This document shows positions 6,356 to 31,096 of a stretch of 33,088 bases of DNA, piece by piece. A program made the position numbers and the translations under genes. The notes beneath the pieces were generated by a model. That model saw only the letters and a program-made list of their open reading frames with translations. It was not told the DNA's origin and searched no databases. Position 1 is the first letter of the stretch; each line of letters starts with the position of its first letter. This stretch comes from Candidatus Cloacimonadota bacterium. GTDB lineage: Bacteria > Cloacimonadota > Cloacimonadia > Cloacimonadales > Cloacimonadaceae. The stretch spans positions 1 to 33,088 of the forward strand of contig JAKQNV010000037.1 in assembly GCA_029565595.1 (NCBI GenBank), in the 5' to 3' direction.

Positions 6356-6458
6356 GTTATATTCCTTACTGGCTAAGGGTTTATCCCCATTTGCCCGCGT
6401 TATGGAATCTTGGATCCCGGAGTGACATTTTTCCCATTTTTTCGCCATCCTCCCGCCT

Positions 6459-6529
6459 ATCAATACGGGATCAATACGGGATCAATACGGATGAAACCCG
6501 TATTGATCCCGTATTGATCCCGTATTGAT
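6459..6529. repeat. 71-nt element E1: three 11-nt ATCAATACGGG units, 5-nt centre, three inverted CCCGTATTGAT units
   Basis: Direct reading: 32-bp perfect inverted repeat with a 7-nt loop (ATGAAAC). Confidence 0.95.
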
Positions 6530-6619
6530 CGCCAGGAAGGTCAAAGAAAAGAGAAAATGTTTTATAGGTTGGGCAGCCGTGGGAAGCAAGGGCCGGGGCT
6601 GGCCCGATATCGGAAAGGC

Positions 6620-15615: not shown

Positions 15616-15741
15616 GGTATTGGGGCGGAATAGCCTTTCTTTTTTTTGTTTGTTTTTTGGTATTCCCACTGTCCGGAATCCTCCAGCAGAGTGGGGAAAT
15701 CCCTGAAATCACCACCCTTTCGCCCTAGTATGCAGGCGTTT

Positions 15742-15812
15742 ATCAAGTCATTATCAAGCCTTAATCAAGTCTTAATAATTAACGCTTGATTAAGGCTTGA
15801 CTAAGAAGTGAT
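15742..15812. repeat. 71-nt element E3: ATCAAGTCATT/ATCAAGCCTTA/ATCAAGTCTTA, 5-nt centre, inverted units
   Basis: Direct reading: inner 16-bp perfect inverted repeat TCAAGCCTTAATCAAG/CTTGATTAAGGCTTGA; three 11-nt units per arm, outermost degenerate. Confidence 0.8.
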
Positions 15813-15828
15813 CAAGGCTTGGACGCAA

Positions 15829-15975
15829 GGGTGCTTGGGCACCAGCAACGGAATGGCTTGTGTTGCAAACGGAAAAGGAATAAGATTGTCATTGCCCCAA
15901 GATCTTCCTGCGGAACAATTCGGTGTGCAGGAAGGTCAGTCGAAATTGCCATTCCAGAGCACCGTAAAAGCACCC
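15829..15975. other. Long-range imperfect inverted repeat / structured intergenic region
   Basis: GGGTGCTT-13-GGAATGGC (15829-15857) inverted as GCCATTCC-12-AAGCACCC (15948-15975); nested GATCTTCCTGC/GCAGGAAGGTC (15901-15911/15927-15937). Confidence 0.5.
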
Positions 15976-26617: not shown

Positions 26618-26715
26618 TTCTCTCGAACCCAACCTTCTGAACTATATTTTCCACCATCTTCATAACAGATTTTATATCAGTAAAATGCTTTATCTTTCCT
26701 AACTCCCCCCTCTCT

Positions 26716-26786
26716 ATCATTACGGGATCAATACGGGATCAATACGGATAAAACCCGTAATGATCCCGTATTGATCCCGTAATGAT
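26716..26786. repeat. 71-nt element E2, second copy of the ATCAATACGGG-unit family
   Basis: ATCATTACGGG ATCAATACGGG ATCAATACGG-ATAAAAC-CCGTAATGAT CCCGTATTGAT CCCGTAATGAT; 32-bp stem with one mismatch, loop ATAAAAC. Confidence 0.95.
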
Positions 26787-26917
26787 CATAAGGGCGGAGA
26801 AGGCAAATTAATATAAGTCATGCGTTTGGCAGATGGCTACGGAATATCATTTCACACACGGCATTTTGTCAGTGGATCGATTTACACAGCCTGCCCCAAG
26901 AACCACGCATTTTTTAC

Positions 26918-26923
26918 TTGACA
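26918..26923 (+). promoter_or_regulatory. Candidate -35 box TTGACA upstream of gatE
   Basis: ACTTGACAAAA 36 nt before ATG 26954; the track used this TTG as a start codon. Confidence 0.35.
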
Positions 26924-26953
26924 AAATCCGCTTCCTATGGGGATTTGGCTTTA

Positions 26954-29146
26954 ATGACAGTGCATACAAAGCTGCGGATGGAAAATCCCCATCTGCGGAA
27001 TTGGTTGCTCAGCCGGGAAAACGTTGGCTGGGTCAGCCTTTCGGACGCCGTGCAAGCGACCTGGCGAACGCTTGGGTTCAAGTGCGGCCTGGAAATCCAT
27101 CAGCAGCTCAAAACGGATAAAAAACTCTTTTGCCGCTGCGCCGCGGGCATCTATCACGATTTTGACGATTATGACGCCGAAGTCGTGCGCCACATGCGGC
27201 CGACGCTTTCCGAACTTGGCGAGTACGACGGCACCGCGTTGATGGAATTCAAAACGCGAAAAAAGATCGTCTACCGCATCAAAAACGACAGCGCCTGCAC
27301 CTATGAAGTGGACGACACCCCGCCGTTTCCGCTCAATCGCGAGGCGCTGGACCAGGCCATGCGGATCGCGCTTCTTCTGAAAATGAAGATCGTCGGCGAG
27401 CTGCATATCACGCGCAAACAGTACTTGGACGGCAGCATCCCCACGGGTTTTCAGAGGACCACGATCCTGGGCATCGAGGGCGCATTTCCCATCTCCACCA
27501 AAACAATCCGAGTCATCCAGTTTTCCGTCGAGGAAGACAGCTGCCGCGAGGTTTGCGATATCCGACATACGCGCGTTTATTACGCCGACCGTTTGGGCAT
27601 GCCGCTCATCGAAACCGTCACCTATCCGGACATGCTGACCCCCTGGGAGGCGGCCGAAGCGGCGCAAAACATTCGCTTTATCGCCCGCAGTTCTGGATTG
27701 GTGAGGGTTGGCATAGGCGCCGCGCGCGAGGACGTCAACGTTTCCATCGATGGCGGCACGCGGATCGAGATCAAGGGCGTGGCACACATCGCCTGGATCC
27801 CCAAACTCACGCACAACGAGGCTTTCCGGCAAAAGTCGCTGCTGCTGATCCGGGATGAATTGGCAGCGCGGAAAATCGACCCCGCTTCCTGGAAAATCCG
27901 CTATACATTGCTGGATCCTGCCGACTGGCGCCACATTCCGCTCCTGAAAAAAGCCTCTGCGGAAGGCTGGAAACTTGTTGCGGTCAATCTGCCCGGATTC
28001 TCTGGGATCCTGAGTTTCTTCAACCAACCTGGGCGTAGCTTTGCCGATGAAATTTCCGACCGCCTGAAAGTCATTCCCTGCCTGGAAAAACCGAATATGC
28101 TCCACTCCGAACAAATTGATTTTTCCCTGCTGGAGCCGAGCAAGGAACGAGATTCGGTTTCTGCAAATGACACCACACTATCAAATGATGTCATTCCGGC
28201 GCCGGGGTCCTCGACAGACAGCTTGCTGGCTGGTGGGGTGGATCAGACTGGAATCCAGGTCTTTTCTGGATCCCGGAACAAGTCCGGGATGACAGCTCCG
28301 GAATTTGCTGACAGCGTTTGGGACAAGGTCCGCAAAGAACTCAAAGCGACTTCTGAAGACTCGCAGATCGTGTTCTGGGCACCCGATGAGGACATAAAAA
28401 CCGCCCTTGAAACGATCTCCGAACGCTGCCTGCTGGCGTTTAAGGGCGTTCCCAACGAAACCAGAAAATCCCTGCCGGATGGCATCACCCTGTTTGAACG
28501 TGTTTTGCCGGGTGCGGACCGCATGTATCCGGATACCGATTCGGCGCCGATCCCGATCGCTGAAGCCCAGATCGAGGCCGCGCGGGTGGAACTGCCCCTC
28601 GGATTGGACCAAAGGCTGGAGCAGCTGGCGCAGTGGGGCATCCCGTCCGATGCCTACACTTATCTGCTGCGTAATAATTTAATGCCCACGGTGGAAGATC
28701 TTTCCAGCAAATATCAGATCGCTCCGAAGCGTCTGGCGCTGTATTTCGCGCATCTGCTCAAAAACCTGCAGGGCAAGGATCCGCTGCCCTTCGATCCGCA
28801 GCGCGTCGAGGACCTGCTCATCTATATCCGCAAAAAGAAGCTGGCTCTGGACATCCTGCCCGAGATGCTGAAAGTGCTTTTTGCCAATCCCAATATGCAG
28901 TTCTCCTCCGTGCTGGCCGTTCTGAACTACAAAGAGATCACGGTCCGCGAAATACTGGCGGAGATCCCGCTTCTGCAACAAATGTGGGCGCGGGTGAAAA
29001 CCAACGGCCTGAAGCGGCCTGACGCCCTCAACACCTGGATGATGGGGCGCCTCCGTTATCTTGCCTTGGGCAATATGCCGCTGGCTGAACTGCGGCAGGC
29101 TGTGGAAAAAGAACTGTCCACGAATTATACGAATTCCACTAATTAA
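26954..29146 (+). CDS. gatE: Glu-tRNA(Gln) amidotransferase subunit E (archaeal-type GatE)
   Basis: 'FKCGLEIHQQLKTDKKLFCRCA', 'RPTLSELGEYDGTALMEF', 'DDTPPFPLNREALDQA', 'DGSIPTGFQRTTILG', 'DRLGMPLIETVTYPDM', 'REDVNVSIDGGTRIEIKGV', 'LPGADRMYPDTDSAPIPI'; C-terminal tail-domain helices. Start uncertain. Confidence 0.92.
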   Translation: MTVHTKLRMENPHLRNWLLSRENVGWVSLSDAVQATWRTLGFKCGLEIHQQLKTDKKLFCRCAAGIYHDFDDYDAEVVRHMRPTLSELGEYDGTALMEFKTRKKIVYRIKNDSACTYEVDDTPPFPLNREALDQAMRIALLLKMKIVGELHITRKQYLDGSIPTGFQRTTILGIEGAFPISTKTIRVIQFSVEEDSCREVCDIRHTRVYYADRLGMPLIETVTYPDMLTPWEAAEAAQNIRFIARSSGLVRVGIGAAREDVNVSIDGGTRIEIKGVAHIAWIPKLTHNEAFRQKSLLLIRDELAARKIDPASWKIRYTLLDPADWRHIPLLKKASAEGWKLVAVNLPGFSGILSFFNQPGRSFADEISDRLKVIPCLEKPNMLHSEQIDFSLLEPSKERDSVSANDTTLSNDVIPAPGSSTDSLLAGGVDQTGIQVFSGSRNKSGMTAPEFADSVWDKVRKELKATSEDSQIVFWAPDEDIKTALETISERCLLAFKGVPNETRKSLPDGITLFERVLPGADRMYPDTDSAPIPIAEAQIEAARVELPLGLDQRLEQLAQWGIPSDAYTYLLRNNLMPTVEDLSSKYQIAPKRLALYFAHLLKNLQGKDPLPFDPQRVEDLLIYIRKKKLALDILPEMLKVLFANPNMQFSSVLAVLNYKEITVREILAEIPLLQQMWARVKTNGLKRPDALNTWMMGRLRYLALGNMPLAELRQAVEKELSTNYTNSTN
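28189..28294. repeat. Palindromic repeat element inserted in frame within gatE
   Basis: Termini TGTCATTCCGG...CCGGGATGACA (10/11 inverted match), nested GGAATCCAG/CTGGATCC; reads in frame as VIPAPGSSTDSLLAGGVDQTGIQVFSGSRNKSGMT. Confidence 0.7.
29115..29144 (-). repeat. AATTCGTG-type repeat, inverted copy at the gatE 3' end
   Basis: Reverse complement AATTAGTGGAATTCGTATAATTCGTGGACA closely matches 29567-29597. Confidence 0.8.
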
Positions 29147-29175
29147 AAATAGAGTGTGTGAAAGTCAGTAGGTCT

Positions 29176-29559
29176 ATGGATTCAAATCAAGAGCTGCTGT
29201 ACAAAGACGAGTGCTACAAGATCGTGGGTGCCTGCATGGAAGTGCACAGCAATTTGGGATGTGGTTTTCTAGAACCTGTTTATCAAGAAGCGCTAGCCCT
29301 TGAACTTCAGCAGAGAGGGATTCCTTTTGAGAAAGAGAAAGAATTTGAGATCAAATACAAGGGATTTGTTATACCGAAGACCTATAAAGTGGACTTCCTC
29401 TGCTACGAACACATAATAGTTGAATTGAAAGCACTCAGCCAACTAACCAGCGATCATATAGCTCAGGTCCTCAACTACCTGAAAGCCTCCCAATTGAAAC
29501 TAGGTCTTCTAGTAAACTTTGGTATCAGCAGCCTTCAGCACGAACGTATAATCTTGTAA
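29176..29559 (+). CDS. GxxExxY family protein (PD-(D/E)XK-like)
   Basis: 'GCGFLEPVYQEALALEL', 'YKVDFLCYEHIIVELKAL', 'QVLNYLKASQLKLGLLVNFG'. Track start is 29158. Confidence 0.9.
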   Translation: MDSNQELLYKDECYKIVGACMEVHSNLGCGFLEPVYQEALALELQQRGIPFEKEKEFEIKYKGFVIPKTYKVDFLCYEHIIVELKALSQLTSDHIAQVLNYLKASQLKLGLLVNFGISSLQHERIIL

Positions 29560-29566
29560 ACCTTTA

Positions 29567-29617
29567 AATTCGTGTGAATTCGTGTAATTCGTGGACAGCC
29601 TAACCCATGCTTAACCT
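29567..29617 (+). repeat. AATTCGTG-type repeat copy A, extending into a duplicate of the gatD start region
   Basis: Ungapped match to 29674-29724, about 44/51 identical by eye. Confidence 0.85.
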
Positions 29618-29673
29618 GCGTAACGTAGCATGCCAATACCACTGATTGTGCTTTAGATCTCTTAAATCCTATT

Positions 29674-29724
29674 AATTCGTGTGAATTCGTGAAATTAGTG
29701 GACAGATCAAACCATGCTTGACCT
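29674..29724 (+). repeat. AATTCGTG-type repeat copy B, including the gatD start codon
   Basis: AATTCGTGTGAATTCGTGAAATTAGTGGACAGATCAAACCATGCTTGACCT. Confidence 0.85.
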
Positions 29725-31096
29725 CTTCAAAGGCTACAAAGGCCGCGCGCTGGAGGTCCTCAAGCATTTCCAGGCCAGGGTTTGGGGCGATACCACGGTC
29801 CAGACGACCCGCGGCGATTTCCAGGGCATCATTCTGCCCCGCAGCGAAAACGACGACGACCGGCATATCGTGATCAAACTGGTCACTGGCTACAATGTCG
29901 GCATCGATGTGGACACCGTCTTGGGTATGCGCGAAACTGGCTACAAAGAAGCGCACTACAAGATCCCGGAAAAGGAATTTCCTTTCACTCCGGGCCTGCC
30001 GAAAGTGAAGCTGCTGGGCACTGGCGGGACCATCGCCTCGCGCCTCGATTACCGCACCGGAGCCGTGATTCCGGCTTTTTCGCCGGGCGAGTTGTATGGC
30101 GCGGTCCCTGAATTGGCCGAGATCTGCAACCTCGAAACTGAAAAGCTCTTTGCCGTTTTTTCCGAAAACATGGGGCCCGAACAGTACAAAAAGCTGGCCG
30201 TCTCCATCGGCAAGGAGATCCACAAAGGCATCGAGGGCATCGTCATCGGGCACGGCACCGACACCATGCACCACACCGCGGCGGCGCTTTCCTTTATGCT
30301 TCAGGACCTGCCGGTTCCCGTGGTAATGGTGGGTTCGCAACGCTCCAGCGACCGTCCTTCCTCCGACGCGGCCTTGAATCTGATGCATGCCGCCTTCACA
30401 GCCGGACACTCCGACATCGCCGAAGTGATGGTCTGCATGTTTGGCCCCACCAGCGACGAATATGGTCTGTTGCATCGGGGCACGCGGGTGCGTAAAATGC
30501 ATTCCTCCTACCGCAGCACTTTCCGCACCATCGGCGATGTTCCGATCGCCCGCGTGACGCGGGATTCAGTGCTTCCGATCAAAACCGATTACAACAAGCG
30601 CCGCCGGGACAACAAGGTCAAAGTCCTGCCCTTCTTCGAGGAACGGGTGGCCCTGGTTTATTACTATCCGAATATGCATCCGGACATCATCGACTCCCTC
30701 GCGGAAAACGGTTATAAAGGCATCGTGATCGCCGGCACCGGACTCGGCCACGTGAACAAGCCCGTCTATCCCGCCATCCAGCGAGCCGTGGCCAAAGGCG
30801 TGCAGATCTTTATGACCGTGCAAACCCTCTGGGGATTCGTGCATATGTTCGTCTACGACACCGGCCGCGACCTCATGAGTATGGGCATCGTACCCGGCGA
30901 AAACCTGCTGCCCGAAGTCGCTTATATAAAGCTGGGCTGGGCTTTGGGACAAACCGCCGATCCCGACCAAGTCCGTGAACTTATGCTCACTCCCATTGCC
31001 GGGGATATCACTGCCGGCGAGCCCTACAACGGCTATCTCATCTTCCAAGGTGGGATACCGGAAATGGAGGAGTTTATTCGGACCTATCATAAATAA
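29714..31096 (+). CDS. gatD: Glu-tRNA(Gln) amidotransferase subunit D (archaeal-type GatD, asparaginase-like)
   Basis: N-terminal GatD domain ('TTVQTTRGDFQGIILPRSENDDDRHIVIKLVTGYNVGI'), asparaginase motifs 'KLLGTGGTIASRLDYRTGAV', 'IVIGHGTDTMHHTAAALSFML', 'VMVGSQRSSDRPSSDAALNL'. Confidence 0.95.
   Translation: MLDLFKGYKGRALEVLKHFQARVWGDTTVQTTRGDFQGIILPRSENDDDRHIVIKLVTGYNVGIDVDTVLGMRETGYKEAHYKIPEKEFPFTPGLPKVKLLGTGGTIASRLDYRTGAVIPAFSPGELYGAVPELAEICNLETEKLFAVFSENMGPEQYKKLAVSIGKEIHKGIEGIVIGHGTDTMHHTAAALSFMLQDLPVPVVMVGSQRSSDRPSSDAALNLMHAAFTAGHSDIAEVMVCMFGPTSDEYGLLHRGTRVRKMHSSYRSTFRTIGDVPIARVTRDSVLPIKTDYNKRRRDNKVKVLPFFEERVALVYYYPNMHPDIIDSLAENGYKGIVIAGTGLGHVNKPVYPAIQRAVAKGVQIFMTVQTLWGFVHMFVYDTGRDLMSMGIVPGENLLPEVAYIKLGWALGQTADPDQVRELMLTPIAGDITAGEPYNGYLIFQGGIPEMEEFIRTYHK

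Follow-up and report, generated by a model that had tools for sequence, protein, structure and literature searches.

Introduction

REPINs are doublets of REP sequences that form hairpins; they are associated with RAYT transposases and are thought to be non-autonomous, and compensatory changes have been reported in their arms too (PMC3116915, PMC2817692). REPs tagged with GTAG or CGTC have stems of 5-13 bp and one of these two tetranucleotides as an end tag (PMC3733652). Several insertion sequences, ISPpu9, ISPpu10, ISPa11 and ISRm19, use REP palindromes as precise and preferred targets (PMC1525189).

The repeat analyzed here, E2, is located upstream of the gatE gene in a contig of an uncultured Candidatus Cloacimonadota bacterium, all 33,088 nucleotides of which are referred to as the window. 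We report its architecture, copy number and intergenic location, its covariation between species, its patchy distribution and its use as a target by an insertion sequence. Like REPINs, the E2-type repeats are intergenic, dispersed and symmetric, form hairpins and fall into genome-specific families. However, a REPIN consists of two REP palindromes around a spacer, whereas each arm of the E2 element repeats an 11-nt unit in fixed phase with a small loop. With the GTAG/CGTC REPs they share the form of small palindromes with alternative complementary stem bases, a patchy occurrence among species and an intergenic location. In contrast to these REPs, the E2-type arms are 33-46 bp long, single and made of iterated units, and they carry no tag: neither GTAG nor CGTC was present in the flank consensus or footprint of 38 copies. 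As in the case of the IS-targeted REPs (PMC1525189), an insertion sequence uses the E2-type repeat as a precise target, but the insertion sequence is IS3-like and its entry point is the hairpin foot, at 11 nt from the core.

Literature searches combining Cloacimonadota with palindromic or repetitive intergenic DNA returned nothing relevant, and no report of an 11-nt iterated hairpin architecture. Clusters of 11-bp iterons are also found in the parC centromere of plasmid R1, where ParR-bound 11-bp direct repeats are clustered at one plasmid site; E2-type units differ from these in forming mirrored arms dispersed through the chromosome. Dispersed palindromic repeats are already known, and the new part is the arms, which are iterated with an 11-nt unit and phase-locked.

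Results

Architecture of E2 and of its genomic copies

E2 covers 71 nt (26716-26786). By direct reading, a 7-nt loop separates three 11-nt units from three mirrored ones, in the order ATCATTACGGG ATCAATACGGG ATCAATACGG ATAAAAC CCGTAATGAT CCCGTATTGAT CCCGTAATGAT. The repeats of the window are as follows.

6441-6458, no strand: left flank of E1, inside the conserved footprint
6459-6529, no strand: E1, another copy of the E2 element with 3+3 units, upstream of a tyrosyl-tRNA synthetase gene
6530-6546, no strand: right flank of E1, inside the conserved footprint
15723-15831, no strand: hairpin of a second class, built from other 11-nt units (ATCAAGNNTTA type); outer sequence GCCCT...CGCAAGGG
26703-26715, no strand: left outer stem/flank of E2, pyrimidine-rich CTCCCCCCTCTCT, pairing with 26787-26799
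26716-26747, plus strand: left arm of E2, with units L1 (26716-26726, ATCATTACGGG), L2 (26727-26737, ATCAATACGGG) and L3 (26738-26747, ATCAATACGG), from direct reading and the alignment of 38 copies
26748-26754, no strand: loop of E2, ATAAAAC
26755-26786, minus strand: right arm of E2, with units R3 (26755-26764), R2 (26765-26775) and R1 (26776-26786)
26787-26799, no strand: right outer stem/flank of E2, purine-rich CATAAGGGCGGAG, complementary to the left flank; the flank consensus is from 38 copies

Pairing is perfect for the outer and middle units; in the inner pair (R3 against L3) there is one mismatch, at a site occupied by A or T. This reading agrees with a preliminary description of the window, which had reported the 71-nt geometry, the mirrored units, the single inner mismatch and the identical geometry of E1, now confirmed at 6459-6529. 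The pyrimidine-rich left and purine-rich right flanks that it had also noted turn out to be complementary outer arms; they belong to this palindrome as its outer portion and are not separate features. With its flanks, the inverted pair has arms of 45 nt that are 87% complementary. Where the two flanks meet, about four bases (CCCT versus CGCA) form an internal loop, followed by a GGCTCT/AGAGCC stem. The hairpin energy of E2 is -68.8 kcal/mol, versus -26.6 +/- 3.4 kcal/mol in shuffles (z = -12.4).

The window belongs to a Candidatus Cloacimonadota MAG assembly of 2.06 Mb in 190 contigs, 84% complete, in which a search for the full-element pattern gave 36 copies. A relaxed scan of 753 kb, selected to contain the copies, gave 38 full or near-full, near-identical copies, all of them (38/38) with 3+3 units. 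Their alignment shows conserved flank positions from about -18 to +17 around the core, a footprint of about 107 nt with the flank consensus GGCTCTCCCT / CGCAAGAGCC. The loop varies between copies (GTGAAAT, ATGAAAT, ATGAAAC, ATCAAAT and others), the terminal loop being mostly of 3 nt, and the outermost unit was swapped for an unrelated sequence in 2/38 copies. Only two isolated units were present in the 753 kb scanned.

An unbiased search of these 753 kb for long hairpins found 43, namely the 38 of the E2 class, four of a second class with ATCAAGNNTTA-type units and one different hairpin. Four further second-class copies were found on other contigs, giving 8 in the sequence examined. The 11-nt period is common to these families: among the 48 unique long hairpins in all the sequence examined, the best self-similarity lag was 11 in 42.

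Location relative to genes

According to simple gene calls, essentially all of the approximately 38 copies are intergenic, the few called inside open frames lying in contig-edge or insertion-sequence frames. Neighboring genes were codirectional, divergent or convergent in 19, 8 and 6 cases, versus a background of 54, 28 and 18%. The copies are located near the middle of the gaps, usually 75-250 nt from gene ends, which fits an exclusion of about 70 nt of gene-proximal sequence.

These positions bear on a possible role as RNA, in which the hairpin would be transcribed and would terminate or stabilize transcripts or mark them for RNase III. The predicted RNA hairpin is very stable, G-U pairs are tolerated in some copies and a copy adjoins the RNase III gene in three species. 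A role in RNA nevertheless appears very unlikely, given a placement that is independent of gene direction, with divergent gaps used at the background rate, and the usual distance to gene ends. An intrinsic terminator was rejected as an identity of E2: no U-tract (T-tract) or terminator call was found there, and the use of gap orientations at background rates argues against it. Known RNA families were also discarded, since nothing exceeded the Rfam threshold except a tRNA in the window; E2 itself gave sub-threshold, chance matches to miRNA hairpins.

Downstream of E2, gatE (26918-29146) and gatD (29714-31096) score above cut-off against NCBIfam gatE_arch and gatD_arch, Glu-tRNA(Gln) amidotransferase genes of the archaeal type in a bacterium; gatE is present in only 6/13 genomes of the genus. 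A GxxExxY (PDDEXK_3) gene is located between them (29114-29724) and resembles a small inserted cassette, with AATTCGTG-type repeats along its borders (29114, 29558 and 29665).

Covariation of the arms

The preliminary description had proposed that a base change in the outer units of E2 was compensated on the opposite arm. Within this genome, the arms commonly vary at unit position 5 only, where A or T occurs, and mirrored A/T sites do not covary. In the outer pair, 35 copies comprised 12 AA, 11 AT, 9 TA and 3 TT (odds 0.36, p 0.28); in the inner pair, the trend was opposite to matching (odds 0.19, p 0.07). The site was matched in 15/35 copies for the outer pair and in 11/34 for the inner pair. 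The matched outer T/T of E2 is one of the three among 35 copies, and its apparent compensation is a coincidence of one copy. With no excess of compensatory changes at the A/T site among the genomic copies, the compensation claim fails there.

A different picture emerged between species. Conserved features are the core CAWTACGG, the 11-nt period and the spacing to the loop, whereas the spacers are genome-specific and altered on both arms together. Gapless alignment from the loop centre showed the same core, period and phase in elements from other genera. By genome consensus, spacer types are, for example, GGG, GGT/GGA or GGTGT/GGACT. In three genomes of the same genus (G003, G007 and G010), copies number in the dozens per genome and have spacers specific to that genome, complementary between arms. 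The spacer pairs 23/73, 34/62, 35/61 and 46/50 contained no unpaired cell between genomes.

For 21 elements from 16 genomes, double changes occurred in 39/46 pairs (0/500 shuffles), with 198 doubly changed cells versus 66 in shuffles, a count that overstates independence because related sequences have common changes. The covariation score was 0.556 versus 0.187 in shuffles for these elements, a set partly chosen for being palindromes. A search using one arm only served as control: 331/335 matches had mirrored units and four were lone, three of them on one viral contig. Spacer identity was 0.85 between mirrored units, 0.57 with the next unit of the same arm and 0.47 with other elements, and 102/138 deviating spacer bases were mirrored. 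Mirrored covariation is thus greater than within-arm homogenization, a contrast that the preliminary description had raised. Its suggestion that pairing is selected is partly supported, by the comparison between species (39/46 pairs), and finds no support at the within-genome A/T site. Altogether, these comparisons support a maintenance of arm pairing between species.

Correction of quasi-palindromes is an established mutational process, and template switching alone could perfect the palindrome in the absence of any selection for a hairpin. Relative to the flanks, the loop occurs in either orientation (27 versus 11 of the 38 copies), as template switching or recombination between arms would give. 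However, frequent correction should match the A/T sites, and this most variable position is left uncorrected, about half to two thirds of the copies being mismatched. These mismatches count against a purely mutational origin, which we consider quite unlikely.

Distribution and orthologous positions

We determined the distribution with a covariance model of the element, which detects the unit family of E2 only. Within the genus, 6/13 genomes were rich, with dozens of copies, and 7/13 had none detected; within the family, 20/50 genomes matched the model. Among 125 genomes of the phylum, this model matched none that lies outside the family. Model-negative genomes can contain hairpins with other 11-nt units (for example at L267 and L270). 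The other genomes with the unit pattern are Candidatus Cloacimonadota MAGs. The single own-type copy of one genome, G012, lies on a contig (C70; L149/L151) that is 99.9% identical to the genome of the window and is probably misbinned. A viral origin was rejected: in IMG/VR the strict unit pattern had no exact match, and the one loose match was not palindromic.

Orthologous gaps that differ in the presence of the element could be compared (G010 L147 versus G000 L075; G007 L165 versus G000 L127), and the gap upstream of gatE contains it in G000 and G005, with none in G002. Flanks in orthologous gaps were too diverged to align, and no exact empty site was found at the strain level. Direct repeats in the flanks showed no excess over permuted pairs that would indicate a target-site duplication. 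In a first test of shared positions, the same side was used in 13/34 cases versus 1/36 for the opposite side. This excess shrank to 8/26 versus 4.5 expected when gap length was controlled (p 0.06, not significant), and positional conservation was therefore rejected as evidence. The gap between the RNase III and radical SAM genes holds a copy in three species (L084 5911-5981, L256 6040 and L234 3803), each in the unit spelling of its own species; recurrence at positions in three species would also fit a retained function.

The repeats could be functional duplex DNA sites, in which each helical turn carries one 11-bp iteron and the array is bound by a host protein with which it coevolves in each lineage, with roles in nucleoid organization, segregation or regulation. 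The conservation across genera of CAWTACGG, the 11-nt period and the phase to the centre, while spacers vary, is consistent with such a site, as are the 11-nt period of other unit families and the recurrence of copies at some orthologous positions. On the other hand, the sharing of positions is not significant when gap length is taken into account, and the covariance model detects no copy in seven genomes of this genus. Duplex recognition of the core would also leave the complementarity of spacers between arms unexplained, and lone units or arms are nearly absent, unlike ordinary binding sites. A duplex site thus seems unlikely.

Insertion sequences and transposases

At 4/4 assembled ends, an IS3-like insertion sequence adjoins the element at the very same base, 11 nt away from the core; its assignment to IS3 is from a weak HTH_Tnp_1 match, below the curated cut-off. 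Its locations are as follows.

L063, 13876-14286: IS3-like insertion sequence, with its end 11 nt from the hairpin core
L066, L067 and L092, first 140 bases: IS3-like insertion sequence, with its end always 11 nt from the hairpin core

A second insertion sequence, with an rve-type transposase, has two known sites (L065 8909-10170 and L151 117-1378), where its distance to a hairpin element is 52 nt and 112 nt.

Strong IS200-like Y1 genes were present in 16/20 element-positive versus 7/30 element-negative genomes (genus-stratified p about 1e-4), element-positive genomes tending to be larger. Each of the Y1 genes inspected lies amid its own palindrome family: CCCTACGGGACTC at L117 (6750-7160), GGTGGCTGAAGCCACC at L182 and CACCGGATTCATCCGGT at L192/L194, where the gene is RAYT-like. 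At these four loci, an 11-nt-unit hairpin was found on one side at most, and no RAYT gene was flanked by inverted E2-type repeats (L117, L182, L192, L194). Two genomes, G066 and G020, have many copies of the element and no strong Y1 gene. An IS200-like Y1 transposase was thus rejected as the mobilizer, the association being a correlation only; we do not name Y1 because the genes inspected are surrounded by other palindromes. No dedicated enzyme was identified among the Y1 genes whose surroundings were read. The contigs read, which are part of the genome, contained no gene-bearing element with the same ends; the outer arms are complementary.

Discussion

We consider it probable, with some reservation, that the repeat to which E2 belongs, palindromic, non-coding, dispersed and about 71-107 nt long, is REPIN- or MITE-like and spread in this lineage as a folded hairpin. 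Its arms are 11-nt arrays in fixed phase with the loop, and the repeat would have propagated within the lineage as a hairpin-forming, non-autonomous element, recognized in a folded form, either single-stranded or cruciform. We infer both the mobility and a mobilizing enzyme, for which no candidate was identified. Propagation in folded form would explain why the arms kept pairing while unit spacers drifted by lineage, and why copies are near-identical within a genome. It would likewise account for the intergenic location regardless of gene direction, and for dozens of copies in some sister species and none in others.

In its working, the E2 class is most like a REPIN or MITE. It is nevertheless not filed as a member of the REP group because it has no GTAG/CGTC tag, no RAYT gene flanked by the same repeat and far longer arms.

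A more specific proposal is that the phase-locked 11-nt array is itself a ruler for recognition, which a coevolving protein or RNA-duplex enzyme reads at every helical turn. This is a tentative idea, to which we give a rather low probability. If true, each species of this family would have its own code of a genome-wide system of hairpin sites, and the system would be acquired or lost in its entirety.

Long near-perfect palindromes are usually thought to be unstable in bacteria, and how dozens of them are retained in each of these genomes is a concrete question. The all-or-nothing distribution within a genus could point to the responsible gene by presence and absence. Finally, the occurrence of the same phase in several genera, together with lineage-specific spacers in both arms, provides a natural covariation dataset on whether such repeats are recognized as folded strands.
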